Positions 22,557 to 61,974 of a stretch of 64,000 nucleotides of DNA are shown here, piece by piece. The first letter of the stretch is position 1. Each line of letters starts with the position of its first letter. The position numbers and the translations under genes were made by a program. The notes under the pieces are model-generated. The model ran no database searches. It was not told the origin of the DNA and was given only the letters and a program-made list of their open reading frames with translations. The DNA comes from Rhizobium jaguaris (GTDB lineage Bacteria > Pseudomonadota > Alphaproteobacteria > Rhizobiales > Rhizobiaceae): contig NZ_CP032694.1 of assembly GCF_003627755.1 (NCBI RefSeq), positions 1,665,501-1,729,500 on the forward strand. The letters are read 5' to 3'.

Positions 22557-22704
22557 GCAAAAAAAAACAAGGCTGTAAGCCTTGTTTTTAAGTATCGCGT
22601 GATCCTTATCCGTTGCCGGGGCTGCGAACGAGCGCGCCTAAGATCTGATCCTCCCAAGACTTGACCGCGAAACGACAAGAATTTAGCCTTCTTGCCTCTT
22701 TTGT
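22557..22704 (-). ncRNA. predicted trans-encoded sRNA upstream of proS (possibly alpha-r9/Smr9C family)
   Basis: On the minus strand a promoter-like pair ATGACA (22739-22734), 17-base spacer, TAATTT (22716-22711) predicts a start near 22704. A GC-poor perfect hairpin followed by nine Ts (22587-22559) is a strong intrinsic terminator, giving an RNA of about 148 bases with no coding frame. Rhizobia carry a conserved sRNA of about this length, alpha-r9 (Smr9C), which I recall being next to proS; this family assignment is from memory and is not verified. A second possible promoter (CTAAAT at 22686-22681) would give a shorter RNA of about 118 bases. Confidence 0.55.
22559..22589 (-). terminator. 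intrinsic terminator of the sRNA (minus strand)
   Basis: A perfect 10-bp stem AAACAAGGCT/AGCCTTGTTT (22565-22574 with 22578-22587), 3-base loop, followed on the minus strand by nine T residues. On the plus strand the T-run is only five long and interrupted, so the main direction is minus. Confidence 0.85.
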
Positions 22705-39857: not shown

Positions 39858-40038
39858 ATACAAGGATAGCCCGCAAGGGCGTGAAGATACCCCATGATGC
39901 TCAGGTCCGCCGCATCTCCTGGGTCGTGGGGTCGGTCGGCTGGCAGGCAATTTCAAGCGGTTCCTCGTGCCGTTTTGCAGGCTAGCCGGCCCCCAGCTTA
40001 AAACGCCGCCTTCCAACGGAAGAGCGGCGTTTTTCTTT
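39858..40038 (+). ncRNA. predicted structured sRNA between pleD and rpmG
   Basis: About 180 bases, GC-rich against the AT-rich upstream. Helices are visible: GCCC/GGGC with a GCAA loop (39869-39880), a long stem closed by ACCCCA/TGGGGT (39889-39932, with inner CAGG/CCTG), and a second long stem GGTCGGCTGGC/GCTAGCCGGCC near 39931-39992, followed by a strong terminator. No gene is downstream in this direction, so it is not a leader. The promoter is uncertain (TTGATT at 39823 with a weak -10). I do not recognise a family. Confidence 0.55.
40000..40038 (+). terminator. intrinsic terminator of the predicted sRNA
   Basis: Stem AAAACGCCGC (40000-40009) with GCGGCGTTTT (40024-40033), extended inward by CTTCC/GGAAG around loop AAC, then a T-rich tail to 40038. 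Confidence 0.85.
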
Positions 40039-59483: not shown

Positions 59484-59584
59484 GACCGTCGCCGATCGAG
59501 CAATCGGCGCGGCCCTTCCAGAACAAGTTGCACAACAATAATTCGTGTTAAAATTGCAACAACACGCCTGCATAGATGTGCGCC

Positions 59585-59608
59585 ATCGTTTCTTTATCTT
59601 GAAACGAT
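59585..59608 (+). promoter_or_regulatory. perfect 8+8 bp dyad over the cassette promoter
   Basis: ATCGTTTC (59585-59592) and GAAACGAT (59601-59608) are perfect inverted arms with an eight-base spacer. The right arm overlaps the -35 element TTGAAA (59599-59604). It is a likely operator for the tRNA-like/slipin cassette. Confidence 0.55.
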
Positions 59609-59627
59609 TCTAAACTGGAGCTATACG
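59599..59627 (+). promoter_or_regulatory. sigma70-type promoter of the tRNA-like/slipin cassette
   Basis: TTGAAA (59599-59604), 17-base spacer, TATACG (59622-59627). The predicted start near 59634 leaves about 110 bases before the first tRNA-like sequence; that leader contains ATACG/CGTAT (59711-59725) and GGAG/CTCC pairings. Confidence 0.55.
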
Positions 59628-59744
59628 CGCCTTCCCGGTCGTCGTGCCGATGCGAGCGTTGATGGTTGGAGTTCCAAAGCTCCTCCCGTGCAGACGGTTT
59701 ACTGTTCTGTATACGAATGCCGTATCGGAAGACGGAAGGCTTGT

Positions 59745-59818
59745 TGGAGTATAGCTCAATGGTAGAGCACCGGACGTTCGTCCGGAGGTTGTGGGTTCGA
59801 ATCCCGCTACCCCCGCCA
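59745..59818 (+). ncRNA. tRNA-like RNA 1 (near-perfect tRNA without a usable anticodon)
   Basis: The cloverleaf is recognisable: D arm GCTC/GAGC (59754-59768), anticodon stem CCGGA/TCCGG (59770-59785), T arm GTGGG-TTCGAAT-CCCGC (59791-59807), discriminator G and CCA (59816-59818). But the acceptor TGGAGTA against TACCCCC has mismatches at pairs 1 and 4, and the anticodon loop has only six bases (CGTTCG), which can also close to a six-pair stem with a GTTC loop. No anticodon with U33 can be assigned. It is not a standard translation tRNA. Confidence 0.7.
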
Positions 59819-59893
59819 AATGGATAGCTCAGTTGGTAGAGCATCAGATTTTTAATCTGATTGTCGAAGGTTCGAATCCTTTTCCAATCGCTG
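59818..59893 (+). ncRNA. tRNA-like RNA 2 (Lys-TTT-like, mismatched acceptor, no CCA)
   Basis: D arm GCTC/GAGC (59827-59842), anticodon stem TCAGA/TCTGA (59844-59860) with loop TTTTTAA (anticodon TTT), T arm GAAGG-TTCGAAT-CCTTT (59866-59882). The acceptor AAATGGA against TCCAATC is mismatched at pairs 1 and 3, and CTG follows the discriminator position where CCA is expected. Its first acceptor base is the last A of the CCA of tRNA-like 1, so the two are fused without a spacer. A functional tRNA-Lys is unlikely. Confidence 0.7.
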
Positions 59894-60225
59894 ATCGAAA
59901 GGTCGGCACCAGCCCGCGAAGCTGTTTACCAATGACGGTCCGGGGACCGGAATGCGCAAGGCCGGAAATCCGGGGACCTAACGGTCTTTCGGGCGGATGG
60001 CCGGGGCGCCAGGGTGACGAGCCAGATCGGCGTTGAAGATTGCGCCGTGTCCCGGCCAGCAAGGAGGAATTCCCTCCGAAGCCGCCGGGATACCGCGTGA
60101 TCCGCTCTTCGCAAATCCGCCCGTCGTCACTGCCACCGGTCTCCGGATCTCGATGACCGGCCATGAAACGAAGCACGAAAGGAACATCGGTCTATGACGT
60201 AGCGCATGCCGAAGGAGTAAGAACA
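59894..60225 (+). other. GC-rich structured leader between the tRNA-like RNAs and slipin
   Basis: 332 bases without a supported coding frame. Many short self-complementary elements are visible, for example GGTCC/GGACC and CCGGA/TCCGG near 59935-59985, and AGGAGG/CCTCC near 60061-60077. It may be the 5' leader of slipin or part of a larger structured RNA. No family was recognised. Confidence 0.45.
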
Positions 60226-61371
60226 ATGATGATATTTCTCGACAAGATCTTGGGACGCAAGCGCGTCCTCGTAAAGGAAAACGAACGTCTGGTTGCCCTG
60301 CACAAGGGCACGATCCTGGGTATTTTCGGACCGGGTCAGCAAGTACTGCCGAACCGACGCAACAGCCTTGACGTTTTTCGCTACGATCTGACCAGCCCGG
60401 TTTTCGCATCGGTCTACGAGAAGGCGTTGTTCGAAAAGCTCCCGGAGGTTGCCGAGTATCACCTGACCGTGTTCCGTACCGGCGTCGGCGAGGTTGCCGT
60501 TATCGAGCGCGACGGCGCAATTTACGCGATTCTCGGCCCGAGCCAGAAGCTCGCGGTCTGGACGGAGGCAGGTCCGTGGAAAGAAATGCGCGTCGATACC
60601 GCGCAGGAACTTGCCGTCGACCCGGTCCTAGCGCGACGCCTTGTTCTGGCGCGGAAGCTGGAGTTCCTTGTGAACCACGCCGTGCTGGAAGGGCAGGTGG
60701 GTTTGCTGTTCGTTGACGGCACATATGTGCGGACCCTTGAGCCGGGCATGCATGCCTTCTGGAATGTCGGCAAGGCCCTGCAGGTCAAGATCGTGGACCT
60801 GAAGCGTCAGTCGCTCGATGTCGCAGGACAGGAGCTCTTGACCAAGGACCGCGTGACGATCCGCGTCAACATTTCCGCGGATTACCGCGTGGTCGATCCG
60901 GTCAAGGCCGTCGGCTCCGTCAAGGACTTCGCGGATACGCTCTATCGTGCACTGCAGCTGGCGTTTCGCCGGACGCTCGGCACGATGACGCTGGATCAGA
61001 TCCTGGAGCGCCGCGTCTCCATCAATGCCGAAGCGGCCGAAAAGGTGCGCGAGGACATGATGGCGATCGGTGTGGAAATCGCAGATATCGAGCTCAAGGA
61101 TGTAATCCTGCCGGGCGATATGCGTGAGATATTGAACCAGGTGGTTGCCGCCGAGAAGCAGGCTGAGGCCAACGTCATCCGCCGCCGTGAGGAAACGAAT
61201 GCAACGCGTTCGTTGCTCAACACGGCCAAGGTTATGGCGGAGCATCCGGTCATGCTGCGCTTGAAGGAGCTTGAAGCTCTGGAAGCCATTGCTGGCAAGG
61301 TGGATAACTTGACGATCCACAACGGCACCAGCGGCTTGATGAACGACCTCGTCAAGCTTCGCGACATCTGA
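60226..61371 (+). CDS. slipin-family (SPFH/Band 7) protein
   Basis: 381 residues. The N-terminal part (about 1-160) has no membrane segment: MMIFLDKILGRKRVLVKENE and onward. The SPFH domain starts around VDGTYVRTLEPGMHAFWNVG (about 163-182) and continues through QSLDVAGQELLTKDRVTIRV. A charged helical segment (about 305-345, AAEKQAEANVIRRREETNAT) is typical of oligomerising Band-7 proteins. The start at 60226 has AAGGAG eight bases upstream. Slipins without membrane anchor, to my knowledge, occur in bacterial RNA-repair operons; the two tRNA-like RNAs upstream fit, but RtcB is not in this window. Confidence 0.85.
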   Translation: MMIFLDKILGRKRVLVKENERLVALHKGTILGIFGPGQQVLPNRRNSLDVFRYDLTSPVFASVYEKALFEKLPEVAEYHLTVFRTGVGEVAVIERDGAIYAILGPSQKLAVWTEAGPWKEMRVDTAQELAVDPVLARRLVLARKLEFLVNHAVLEGQVGLLFVDGTYVRTLEPGMHAFWNVGKALQVKIVDLKRQSLDVAGQELLTKDRVTIRVNISADYRVVDPVKAVGSVKDFADTLYRALQLAFRRTLGTMTLDQILERRVSINAEAAEKVREDMMAIGVEIADIELKDVILPGDMREILNQVVAAEKQAEANVIRRREETNATRSLLNTAKVMAEHPVMLRLKELEALEAIAGKVDNLTIHNGTSGLMNDLVKLRDI

Positions 61372-61382
61372 TCGCTGAATAC

Positions 61383-61424
61383 AAAAGAGACCGCCCTGGA
61401 TATCCCGGGCGGTCTCGCTCTTTT
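61383..61424. terminator. bidirectional terminator between slipin and yjhX
   Basis: A perfect 10-bp stem GAGACCGCCC/GGGCGGTCTC (61387-61396 with 61407-61416), flanked by AAAA on the left and TTTT on the right. It serves both convergent genes. Confidence 0.88.
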
Positions 61425-61430
61425 GCGATC

Positions 61431-61688
61431 CTACCTATTATCCAACTGCGCCCTGACCAATCCCAATCCCCGCTCGGTGATCCGATAAGGACTCCCTCCG
61501 GAGGATTTGATGGCTTTCAGGCGTTTGAGTTTGCGGAAGAGATCGAGGCCGAAGCCGGGATAGAGCCAACCGTCGCGTGTGAAGCAACTGACTGCCTCGA
61601 TCTTTTTATTTTCAGAACGGTTGATTTCGATGCGCCCGCCCTGGGCAAGCAGATGCAGGATGCGCTGTTCAGCGCGGGAAATATCCAT
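61431..61688 (-). CDS. yjhX: YjhX (TopAI) family protein, UPF0386
   Basis: 85 residues, the exact family length. MDISRAEQRILHLLAQGGRI, VSCFTRDGWLYPGFGLDLF and the strongly conserved end YRITERGLGLVRAQLDNR are diagnostic. E. coli YjhX inhibits DNA topoisomerase I and is neutralised by the GNAT-type YjhQ. Here it is encoded alone on this strand; a GNAT gene lies divergently 286 bases away. The start at 61688 is chosen over an ATG 19 codons upstream because it matches the family length. Confidence 0.88.
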   Translation of the reverse strand: MDISRAEQRILHLLAQGGRIEINRSENKKIEAVSCFTRDGWLYPGFGLDLFRKLKRLKAIKSSGGSPYRITERGLGLVRAQLDNR

Positions 61689-61974
61689 GGTTTTCAAGAT
61701 CCGGAAAGCGCCGTTAGGCGCAACAAAACGATCCGACATTCCCACCAGGGAAGTCGGGGCTTCGTTTCGGGCCCTGCGCGCAAGAAAGACTTGCGGGCGG
61801 GGCCTTTACCGGGTCTGTGAAGAGGTAAACATGTGCCATACCTAGAACAGGTTGTACCCGGCGGTCAAGTTTCACCCTTGTTAAACATGGGCAGCCTTCC
61901 AGCGCCTGTTTGCTATTTGGCCGCTGGAAAAAGCCCTTTTCCGGTGTTTTACTGCTGAAAACGGCGGGGGCCCG

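Follow-up and report, generated by a model that had tools for sequence, protein, structure and literature searches.

A conserved cassette of two tandem tRNA-like RNAs and a slipin gene between gatA and gatB of Rhizobium jaguaris

The locus and its two tRNA-like RNAs

We analyzed a stretch of 64,000 nucleotides from Rhizobium jaguaris (contig NZ_CP032694.1, positions 1,665,501 to 1,729,500; hereafter the window, numbered from its first base) in which an earlier note, made from the sequence alone, had described two near-tRNAs and a slipin gene between gatA and gatB. The source genome is 8.0 Mb in 4 contigs, with completeness rated at 100%. The cassette is genuine and conserved, and it lies in the predicted interval, which contains, in order, a promoter, two fused cloverleaves, a GC-rich leader, the slipin gene, a terminator, a YjhX-like gene on the opposite strand, and a GNAT gene. 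Slipin together with tRNA-like RNA is an already-known kind of arrangement in RNA-repair systems, and we take the cassette to be a ligase-free branch of that module, an assignment that is much safer than the mechanism we propose for it below.

The two tRNA-like RNAs, TL1 and TL2, are defective in opposite ways. Both are on the plus strand, both were called by ARAGORN, our parser and covariation, and both exceeded the Rfam tRNA gathering cut-off of 29 bits, in agreement with the claim of two fused tRNA-like sequences. TL1 (59745-59818; 51.4 bits) has an encoded CCA, a six-nucleotide anticodon loop (CGTTCG) and five of seven acceptor pairs. TL2 (59818-59891; 64.4 bits) has a seven-nucleotide loop resembling that of Lys-UUU, five of seven acceptor pairs and no CCA. 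The parser therefore reproduced every imperfection that had been listed (the six-base loop of TL1, the acceptor mismatches and the missing CCA of TL2). By the ARAGORN calls the two RNAs share one base in the window, and in neither molecule are a seven-base-pair acceptor, a seven-nucleotide loop and CCA found together, as they would be in an ordinary tRNA.

The slipin was accompanied by tRNA-like RNA throughout the clade of the window. ARAGORN, at normal and relaxed scores, found at least one tRNA-like RNA 5' of slipin in 39/39 readable clade loci, two of which duplicate the RNA of another locus, so a slipin standing without the RNAs in all relatives, which the earlier note had named as the outcome that would speak against it, is not what we found. 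The parser recovered both RNAs in 33 clade loci (31 distinct), one in five and none in L064, where ARAGORN called one and our model of the tandem pair (R2) gave 90 bits, a score that alone is no proof (ordinary single tRNAs reach about 60 bits and an ordinary tandem pair in L086 reaches 99). ARAGORN also found at least one tRNA-like RNA in 18 of 22 loci that are more distant or degraded. There are 40 clade loci in all. Counts of 37 omit L071 (only 70 nucleotides upstream) and L091 and L096 (RNA identical to that of L023 and L025), and the set of 31 distinct loci further omits L028, L029, L031, L064, L065 and L108, in which two tRNA-like RNAs were not parsed.

The opposite defects of TL1 and TL2 recur across these loci. 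According to the parser, which was written after the sequences had been viewed and favours paired stems and loops near seven nucleotides, so that its numbers are descriptive, TL1 reached six or more of the seven acceptor pairs in 23 of the 31 distinct loci and carried an encoded CCA in 25 of them. Its anticodon loop was seven nucleotides long in 15 loci and three to six in 16, and there were 27 different loops. TL2 had no CCA in any of the 31 loci and no more than five of seven acceptor pairs in 29, together with a perfect anticodon stem in all 31 and a seven-nucleotide loop in 29. Every one of those 29 loops had Y32 and R37, and 18 different anticodons were found within them. The loop differed even between near-identical loci (bodies five or fewer bases apart), in 52 of 53 pairs for TL1 and 18 of 21 pairs for TL2, pairs that are not mutually independent.

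Covariation supported the fold of the tandem pair. Across its alignment 97.3% of 1145 cells were paired and 133 cells had changes on both sides, compared to 29.3 in shuffles (0/500); such both-side changes fell at 25 of the 37 base pairs. By this anatomy neither TL1 nor TL2 is an ordinary tRNA; selection acts on both as mimics of tRNA, and both look unfit for translation.

The slipin and the absence of a known RNA ligase

The slipin gene (60226-61371, plus strand) encodes 381 amino acids and matches Pfam Band_7 at 2.4e-31; based on this match, the alignment and the tree, it is an SPFH gene of the RNA-repair-module subfamily. Its best sequence matches among solved structures were stomatin, followed by QmcA and HflK. 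A comparison of profiles of its two halves pointed to an N-terminal SPFH-like repeat (91% probability over 36 columns). The protein had been described as lacking a membrane anchor, and indeed its highest 19-residue hydropathy was 1.33, with no transmembrane-like segment; five of 48 homologs exceeded 1.6.

Close relatives of this slipin were uncommon. At E <= 1e-35 they were present in 6/385 genomes of the class, 23/398 of the phylum and 21/394 of the Rhizobiaceae, samples that overlap and that each include the genome of the window. All of the 61 nearest genomes had an SPFH match, and five only had a close slipin. A scan of named genomes located 11 loci, which belong to Rhizobium, Shinella, roseobacters and metagenome bins, the nearest being from Rhizobium; some named loci may be the same as genomes that carry G labels in the overlapping samples. 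In a wider protein search, with the best 120 matches listed, at least 7794 of 8000 scored candidates had E <= 1e-40. The slipin tree, a quick search without bootstrap and with labels set by hand, placed the 29 rows of the window's clade on one side of a branch with an SH-aLRT (Shimodaira-Hasegawa-like approximate likelihood ratio test) support of 100.

The cassette was kept at the gatA-gatB site in the loci of Rhizobium and Shinella, and no locus outside this group had gatA as a neighbour. Beyond slipin and the genes around gatA and gatB, none of the gene families was shared by as many as five alphaproteobacterial loci (L091-L108 were outside this comparison). In one genome (L060, G027) the cassette was apparently lost from the same gatA site: the stretch between gatA and the YjhX gene still contains a piece of the slipin C-terminus (residues 329-380, at 71% identity and with one stop), and ARAGORN called no tRNA-like RNA there.

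Distant members of the slipin family were linked to RNA repair, as had been proposed. In 14/14 genomes from outside the alphaproteobacteria, the slipin, in most cases behind tRNA-like RNAs (12/14 by ARAGORN), had rtcB within 4 kb, and within 1 kb in 13 of them; these slipins aligned to that of the window at 36-45% identity. With a crude caller of open reading frames (ORFs), genes of the RtcR and RtcA clusters, named through members in L075 that were confirmed by Pfam, were found in 8/14 and 5/14 of these loci, respectively. L075 also has RlaP (Pfam), and it has three tRNA-like RNAs 5' of slipin rather than two.

The genome of the window had none of these partners. We looked for rtcB, rtcA and rtcR in the rest of the genome, as the earlier note had advised, and a profile search found none of the three (for RtcB, the control was positive in 9/14), which supports the stand-alone version that had been suggested. 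The only match to PF09414 (RNA_ligase), in a frame of 840 residues that we take to be an ATP-dependent DNA ligase, had 22.4 bits, below the cut-off of 27, and we rejected it as a hidden ATP-grasp RNA ligase. The window thus has tRNA-like RNA directly 5' of its slipin, with neither an RtcB nor an ATP-grasp ligase and neither RtcR nor RtcA.

Absence of the ligase was common among related carriers. We searched 29 alphaproteobacterial carriers, two of them metagenome bins placed by their slipin, with 18 further Rhizobiaceae carriers outside the search. RtcB was absent from 18/29, the genome of the window included, and from 14/22 in the window's clade. The other 11 had RtcB elsewhere (four strong matches and seven weaker-scoring), and RtcA was found in 0/29. 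RtcR was found in 4/29, each time near a weaker RtcB and, as far as the contigs tell, apart from the slipin cassette; for G045 the contig is too short for neighbours to be seen.

The cassette resembles several known systems, each in part. Burroughs and Aravind in 2016 reportedly described RNA-repair modules in which an SPFH/Band-7 (slipin) gene goes with tRNA-like RNA. The cassette is similar to these in having slipin beside tRNA-like RNA and relatives near RtcB (in one locus with RtcR, RtcA and RlaP), but it differs in that its genome lacks a ligase, a cyclase and RtcR, and in having a sigma70-like promoter and a two-codon ORF before slipin. Slipins of the same family without adjacent rtcB were also found in an E. 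coli slipin-RlaP island and in a Citrobacter record with rtcR, slipin and a nucleotidyltransferase gene between rluF and lysC. Unlike the window, these islands have a nucleotidyltransferase gene (RlaP by Pfam in E. coli), a spacer with a T-arm-like stretch only, and a TGGCAC site that by eye looks like a sigma54 promoter. In E. coli the pair of slipin and nucleotidyltransferase (RlaP in L110) is at rluF/yjbD-lysC in L110 and L111, followed in L111 by phage tail genes; in the Citrobacter record (L117) the same place also has a gene for a RelE/ParE-type toxin. The spacer and slipin were covered over at least 80% by 1621/5426 complete E. coli genomes. E. coli was rejected for following anticodon change inside one species because its spacer contains no cloverleaf; ARAGORN found 0 tRNA-like RNAs in L110, and seven spacers were aligned of the 1621 genomes.

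Other likenesses come from published systems. In the rsr-yrlBA-rtcBA operon a Ro protein goes with Y RNAs, and it has been suggested that YrlA acts through its tRNA-like portion as a competitive inhibitor (PMC7790460). Here, too, tRNA-like RNA is beside the gene of a scaffold-type protein in a setting of RNA repair, but with slipin in place of Ro, two tandem cloverleaves, and no RtcB or RtcR. Membership in the Y RNAs was rejected: the match to YrlA (59784-59845), which combines the TL1 T arm with the TL2 D arm, had only 26.4 bits against a cut-off of 69. No Ro (TROVE) gene is beside the RNAs, the neighbours being gatA, slipin, YjhX and GNAT, and no genome-wide TROVE search was made. Phage tRNAs have been described whose changed anticodon loops let them evade anticodon nucleases (PMC10264068). 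As with these, the anticodon loop here would be the site of an arms race against tRNases, but the phage molecules are proposed to be working tRNAs, in contrast to the defective bacterial mimics described here. In Anabaena, one repressor, TrcR, controls the slipin gene alr0740 together with rtcB and a large operon of tRNAs (PMC10272220). In a 2026 report, the P. aeruginosa rtc locus includes an SPFH gene, not necessarily of this slipin family (PMC13086221).

Flanking RNA domains, the mini-ORF and transcription signals

The tRNA-like RNAs are flanked by structured RNA on both sides. Domain A (59626-59744, plus strand; fold z = -4.1), which like the two-codon ORF described below was absent from the earlier note, forms two hairpins directly 5' of TL1. 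In its alignment (A2; 32 rows, the 37 loci without L028, L029, L031, L065 and L106), 94.8% of cells were paired and 67 had changes on both sides, compared to 20.7 in shuffles (0/500). A covariance model of domain A matched 16/297 Rhizobiaceae genomes. All 16 carry the slipin, and in each of them the domain is on the same strand as slipin and 431-591 nucleotides 5' of it. Across 299 genomes of the phylum, six matched, again all slipin carriers. Such searches of many genomes used stricter filters, and weak matches were lost; the slipin carriers G1162, G1110, G1126, G1142 and G1176 were not necessarily among the 297. Applied to a set of 37 loci, the model gave 22 matches, of which the best 20 were directly 5' of the tRNA-like RNAs and the weakest two elsewhere. 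Domain A was in place in seven of the 14 RtcB-linked loci from outside the alphaproteobacteria (L073, L076, L077, L078, L081, L082 and L085), five of them at E <= 0.04.

Downstream of TL2, the leader is folded as had been claimed (59930-60155, z = -5.0). A small hairpin lies directly 3' of TL2 (59890-59907, plus strand; -10.4 kcal/mol, z = -3.6), and hairpins resembling it were visible by eye in relatives. Domain B (59937-60149, plus strand), recognized by covariation and fold, is closed by a long-range helix of 14 base pairs between GGTCCGGGGACCGG (59937-59950) and CCGGTCTCCGGATC (60136-60149). In an alignment of 30 rows (the 37 loci without L028, L029, L031, L065, L072, L106 and L108), 391/417 cells of this helix were paired, with 13 double changes compared to 3.4 in shuffles (0/2000).

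Between domain B and slipin there is a very short ORF. The Shine-Dalgarno-like GAAAGGA (60177-60183, plus strand), recognized as a sequence pattern, is followed by ATG ACG TAG (60194-60202, plus strand), a frame of two codons recognized by its Shine-Dalgarno sequence and shortness. With a pattern set after we had read the sequences, so that the numbers are descriptive, a Shine-Dalgarno sequence and an ORF of one to four codons preceded slipin in 33/37 clade loci (in 29, exactly two codons), compared to 1.9 expected from dinucleotide shuffles, and in 0/19 distant loci, compared to 0.4 expected. Among the loci tested, this mini-ORF is thus restricted to the clade of the window. A small hairpin often overlies it, as judged by eye from folds of 19 loci without a shuffle test.

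The cassette begins with a promoter and ends with a terminator, both of which had been claimed. The sigma70-like sequence TTGAAA-N17-TATACG (59599-59627, plus strand), read from the sequence, is almost letter-identical in the closest relatives (L021-L024) and resembles more weakly what precedes the cassette in the remaining relatives, both by eye; it is missing from the output of a generic promoter scan. The intrinsic terminator (61385-61424, plus strand; -24.9 kcal/mol, z = -5.6, followed by GCTCTTTT) was not listed in a simple scan because the loop limit of that scan was 8.

The operator-like dyad of the earlier note did not hold up. Its arms, ATCGTTTC and GAAACGAT (59585-59608), are present in the window, but the left arm is gone in the close relatives L021-L024, and we therefore rejected an operator role for it. 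Another operator-like region lies 5' of the promoter (59527-59565), with GTTGCACAAC (59527-59536) and GTGTT..AACAC around TTGCAAC (59545-59565). Palindromes of the type GTTGC..GCAAC, at -140 to -219 from TL1, were found in 15/37 loci compared to 1.3 expected; the pattern was defined post hoc from the sequences and the shuffles preserve base composition only, so these counts are descriptive.

Several other features lie outside the cassette. The gene that follows it (61431-61745) is of the YjhX_toxin family (PF09857) and is retained 3' of the cassette in the gatA-gatB loci of Rhizobium and Shinella. Elsewhere in the window are a tandem pair of tRNA-Asp (GTC) genes with equal Rfam scores (2606-2809), a weak tRNA-like match on the minus strand (2141-2213; 32.5 bits), and the known alphaproteobacterial small RNAs ar9 (22559-22704) and EcpR1 (39887-39996).

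Possible function and rival explanations

We tentatively favour, at somewhat less than an even chance, the reading that TL1 and TL2 take no part in translation and serve as baits or sensors for nucleases that cut tRNA, slipin being their scaffold. A single promoter would drive slipin and, ahead of it, a structured RNA made up of domain A, TL1, TL2, the small hairpin and domain B. TL1 would offer a CCA acceptor end and an abnormal anticodon loop, whereas TL2 would combine a defective acceptor with an anticodon loop that is well formed but changeable. These RNAs would titrate tRNA-attacking enzymes, chiefly anticodon nucleases, or would be cut by them, and the changing anticodons may record an arms race against nucleases that differ in specificity. 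The SPFH fold builds rings and cages in known relatives of slipin, and slipin could be a scaffold that keeps hold of the RNA, whether whole or cleaved. The mini-ORF may couple slipin synthesis to the state of translation. We favour a bait for enzymes that read the anticodon because the anticodon is what changes most, inside the preserved loop frame of TL2; in addition, the genome has no known ligase, which makes it unlikely that the cassette serves mainly to repair RNA by joining. The suggestion made for YrlA is a precedent for the idea of a bait (PMC7790460).

A more specific form of this proposal, about which we are doubtful, is a bait in two parts. The identity of a tRNA would be split between the acceptor of TL1 and the anticodon of TL2, which is rewritten from species to species; slipin would collect the cut baits as an alarm or in quarantine, and the two-codon ORF would read whether elongation and termination by ribosomes continue.

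Several observations weigh against the bait or sensor reading. Transcription as one unit, binding of the RNA by slipin, the function as bait or sensor, and any action of the mini-ORF are steps that we infer. The variability of the loops, chiefly in TL1, could instead reflect relaxed constraint, and some mimics are imperfect: T33 was present in 22/29 of the seven-nucleotide TL2 loops and absent in 7/29. The pair is not indispensable, as L028, L029 and L065 have a single tRNA-like RNA by both ARAGORN and the parser. In E. coli and Citrobacter, the spacer before slipin keeps by eye only a stretch like a T arm, and the pair model gave no match in E. coli L110 and 9.6 bits in Citrobacter L117; a slipin without cloverleaves is possible. 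The covariance model did not detect domain A in the other seven of the 14 RtcB-linked loci. Finally, in the 11/29 alphaproteobacterial carriers with RtcB elsewhere, four of them with RtcR near it, a distant ligase may act.

We rank next, and consider unlikely, the explanation that the tRNA-like RNAs have no life of their own and are only processing or sensing elements of the slipin mRNA. A cut by RNase P, RNase Z or an anticodon nuclease would release or destroy the message, and domain B and the mini-ORF would set its translation. All parts point the same way and lie between a single promoter and slipin, in most clade loci slipin is adjoined by domain B and the mini-ORF, and every domain A match in the genome searches (16/16 and 6/6) was near slipin, as this explanation would have it. 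The simple scan found no terminator-like site on the same strand from TL2 to slipin, a weak point as the real terminator was also unlisted. However, TL1 and TL2 retain full D and T arms with changeable anticodons, beyond the needs of a processing signal, and tRNA-like RNAs persist in distant loci that lack the mini-ORF. It seems less probable still that the RNAs are guides or templates that keep the halves of a broken tRNA in place for an RNA ligase, a role put forward for scaffold RNAs of RtcB systems, with a distant or unrecognized enzyme doing the joining in the alphaproteobacteria. The architecture closely matches that of the RtcB-linked operons, and the 11 carriers with RtcB elsewhere would fit. 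Against this, most carriers (18/29) have no RtcB, none has RtcA, the PF09414 match was below its cut-off, and the anticodon loops seem too variable for one guide.

Two further explanations take the RNAs to be, or to have been, tRNA genes. Alternative tRNAs for translation under stress, like those of the Anabaena trn operon, with slipin as an unrelated passenger, were already disfavoured, and we regard them as highly improbable. The control of alr0740, rtcB and the tRNA operon by TrcR (PMC10272220) and the fact that ARAGORN calls many of the tRNA-like RNAs as tRNAs are consistent with this explanation, but TL1 loops of three to six nucleotides (16/31), and TL2 without CCA (0/31) and with five or fewer acceptor pairs (29/31), are misfits for decoding or charging, as is the one-base overlap of TL1 and TL2 in the window. 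We give almost no weight to remnant tRNA genes that mark the integration site of a mobile element that delivered slipin. The distribution is patchy (21/394 Rhizobiaceae genomes), gatA is not a neighbour beyond Rhizobium and Shinella, and one E. coli strain has phage tail genes after the slipin-nucleotidyltransferase pair. However, covariation with changes on both sides at 25 of the 37 base pairs of the tandem pair refutes such a site as the sole explanation; tRNA-like RNAs lie 5' of slipin across classes, and there was no match in phage records or viral contigs (no integrase search was made).

The text on slipin and RNA repair that we covered, with few subscription papers included, did not contain the tandem pair, its variable anticodons, the flanking domains, the mini-ORF or a ligase-free branch. 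In a genome with no known ligase, cyclase or RtcR, the slipin and RNA part of the module stands apart from ligation, and its function becomes accessible by simple deletion. The variable anticodons within conserved mimics lead to a prediction that can be checked, that the specificity of the nucleases should be related to the TL2 anticodon. The two-codon ORF, which is conserved although very small for a reading frame, is possibly a new type of gauge of translation. If the bait does have two parts, the cassette would be a defence against tRNA damage that is independent of a ligase, with lineage-specific decoys for the nucleases that each lineage has met.

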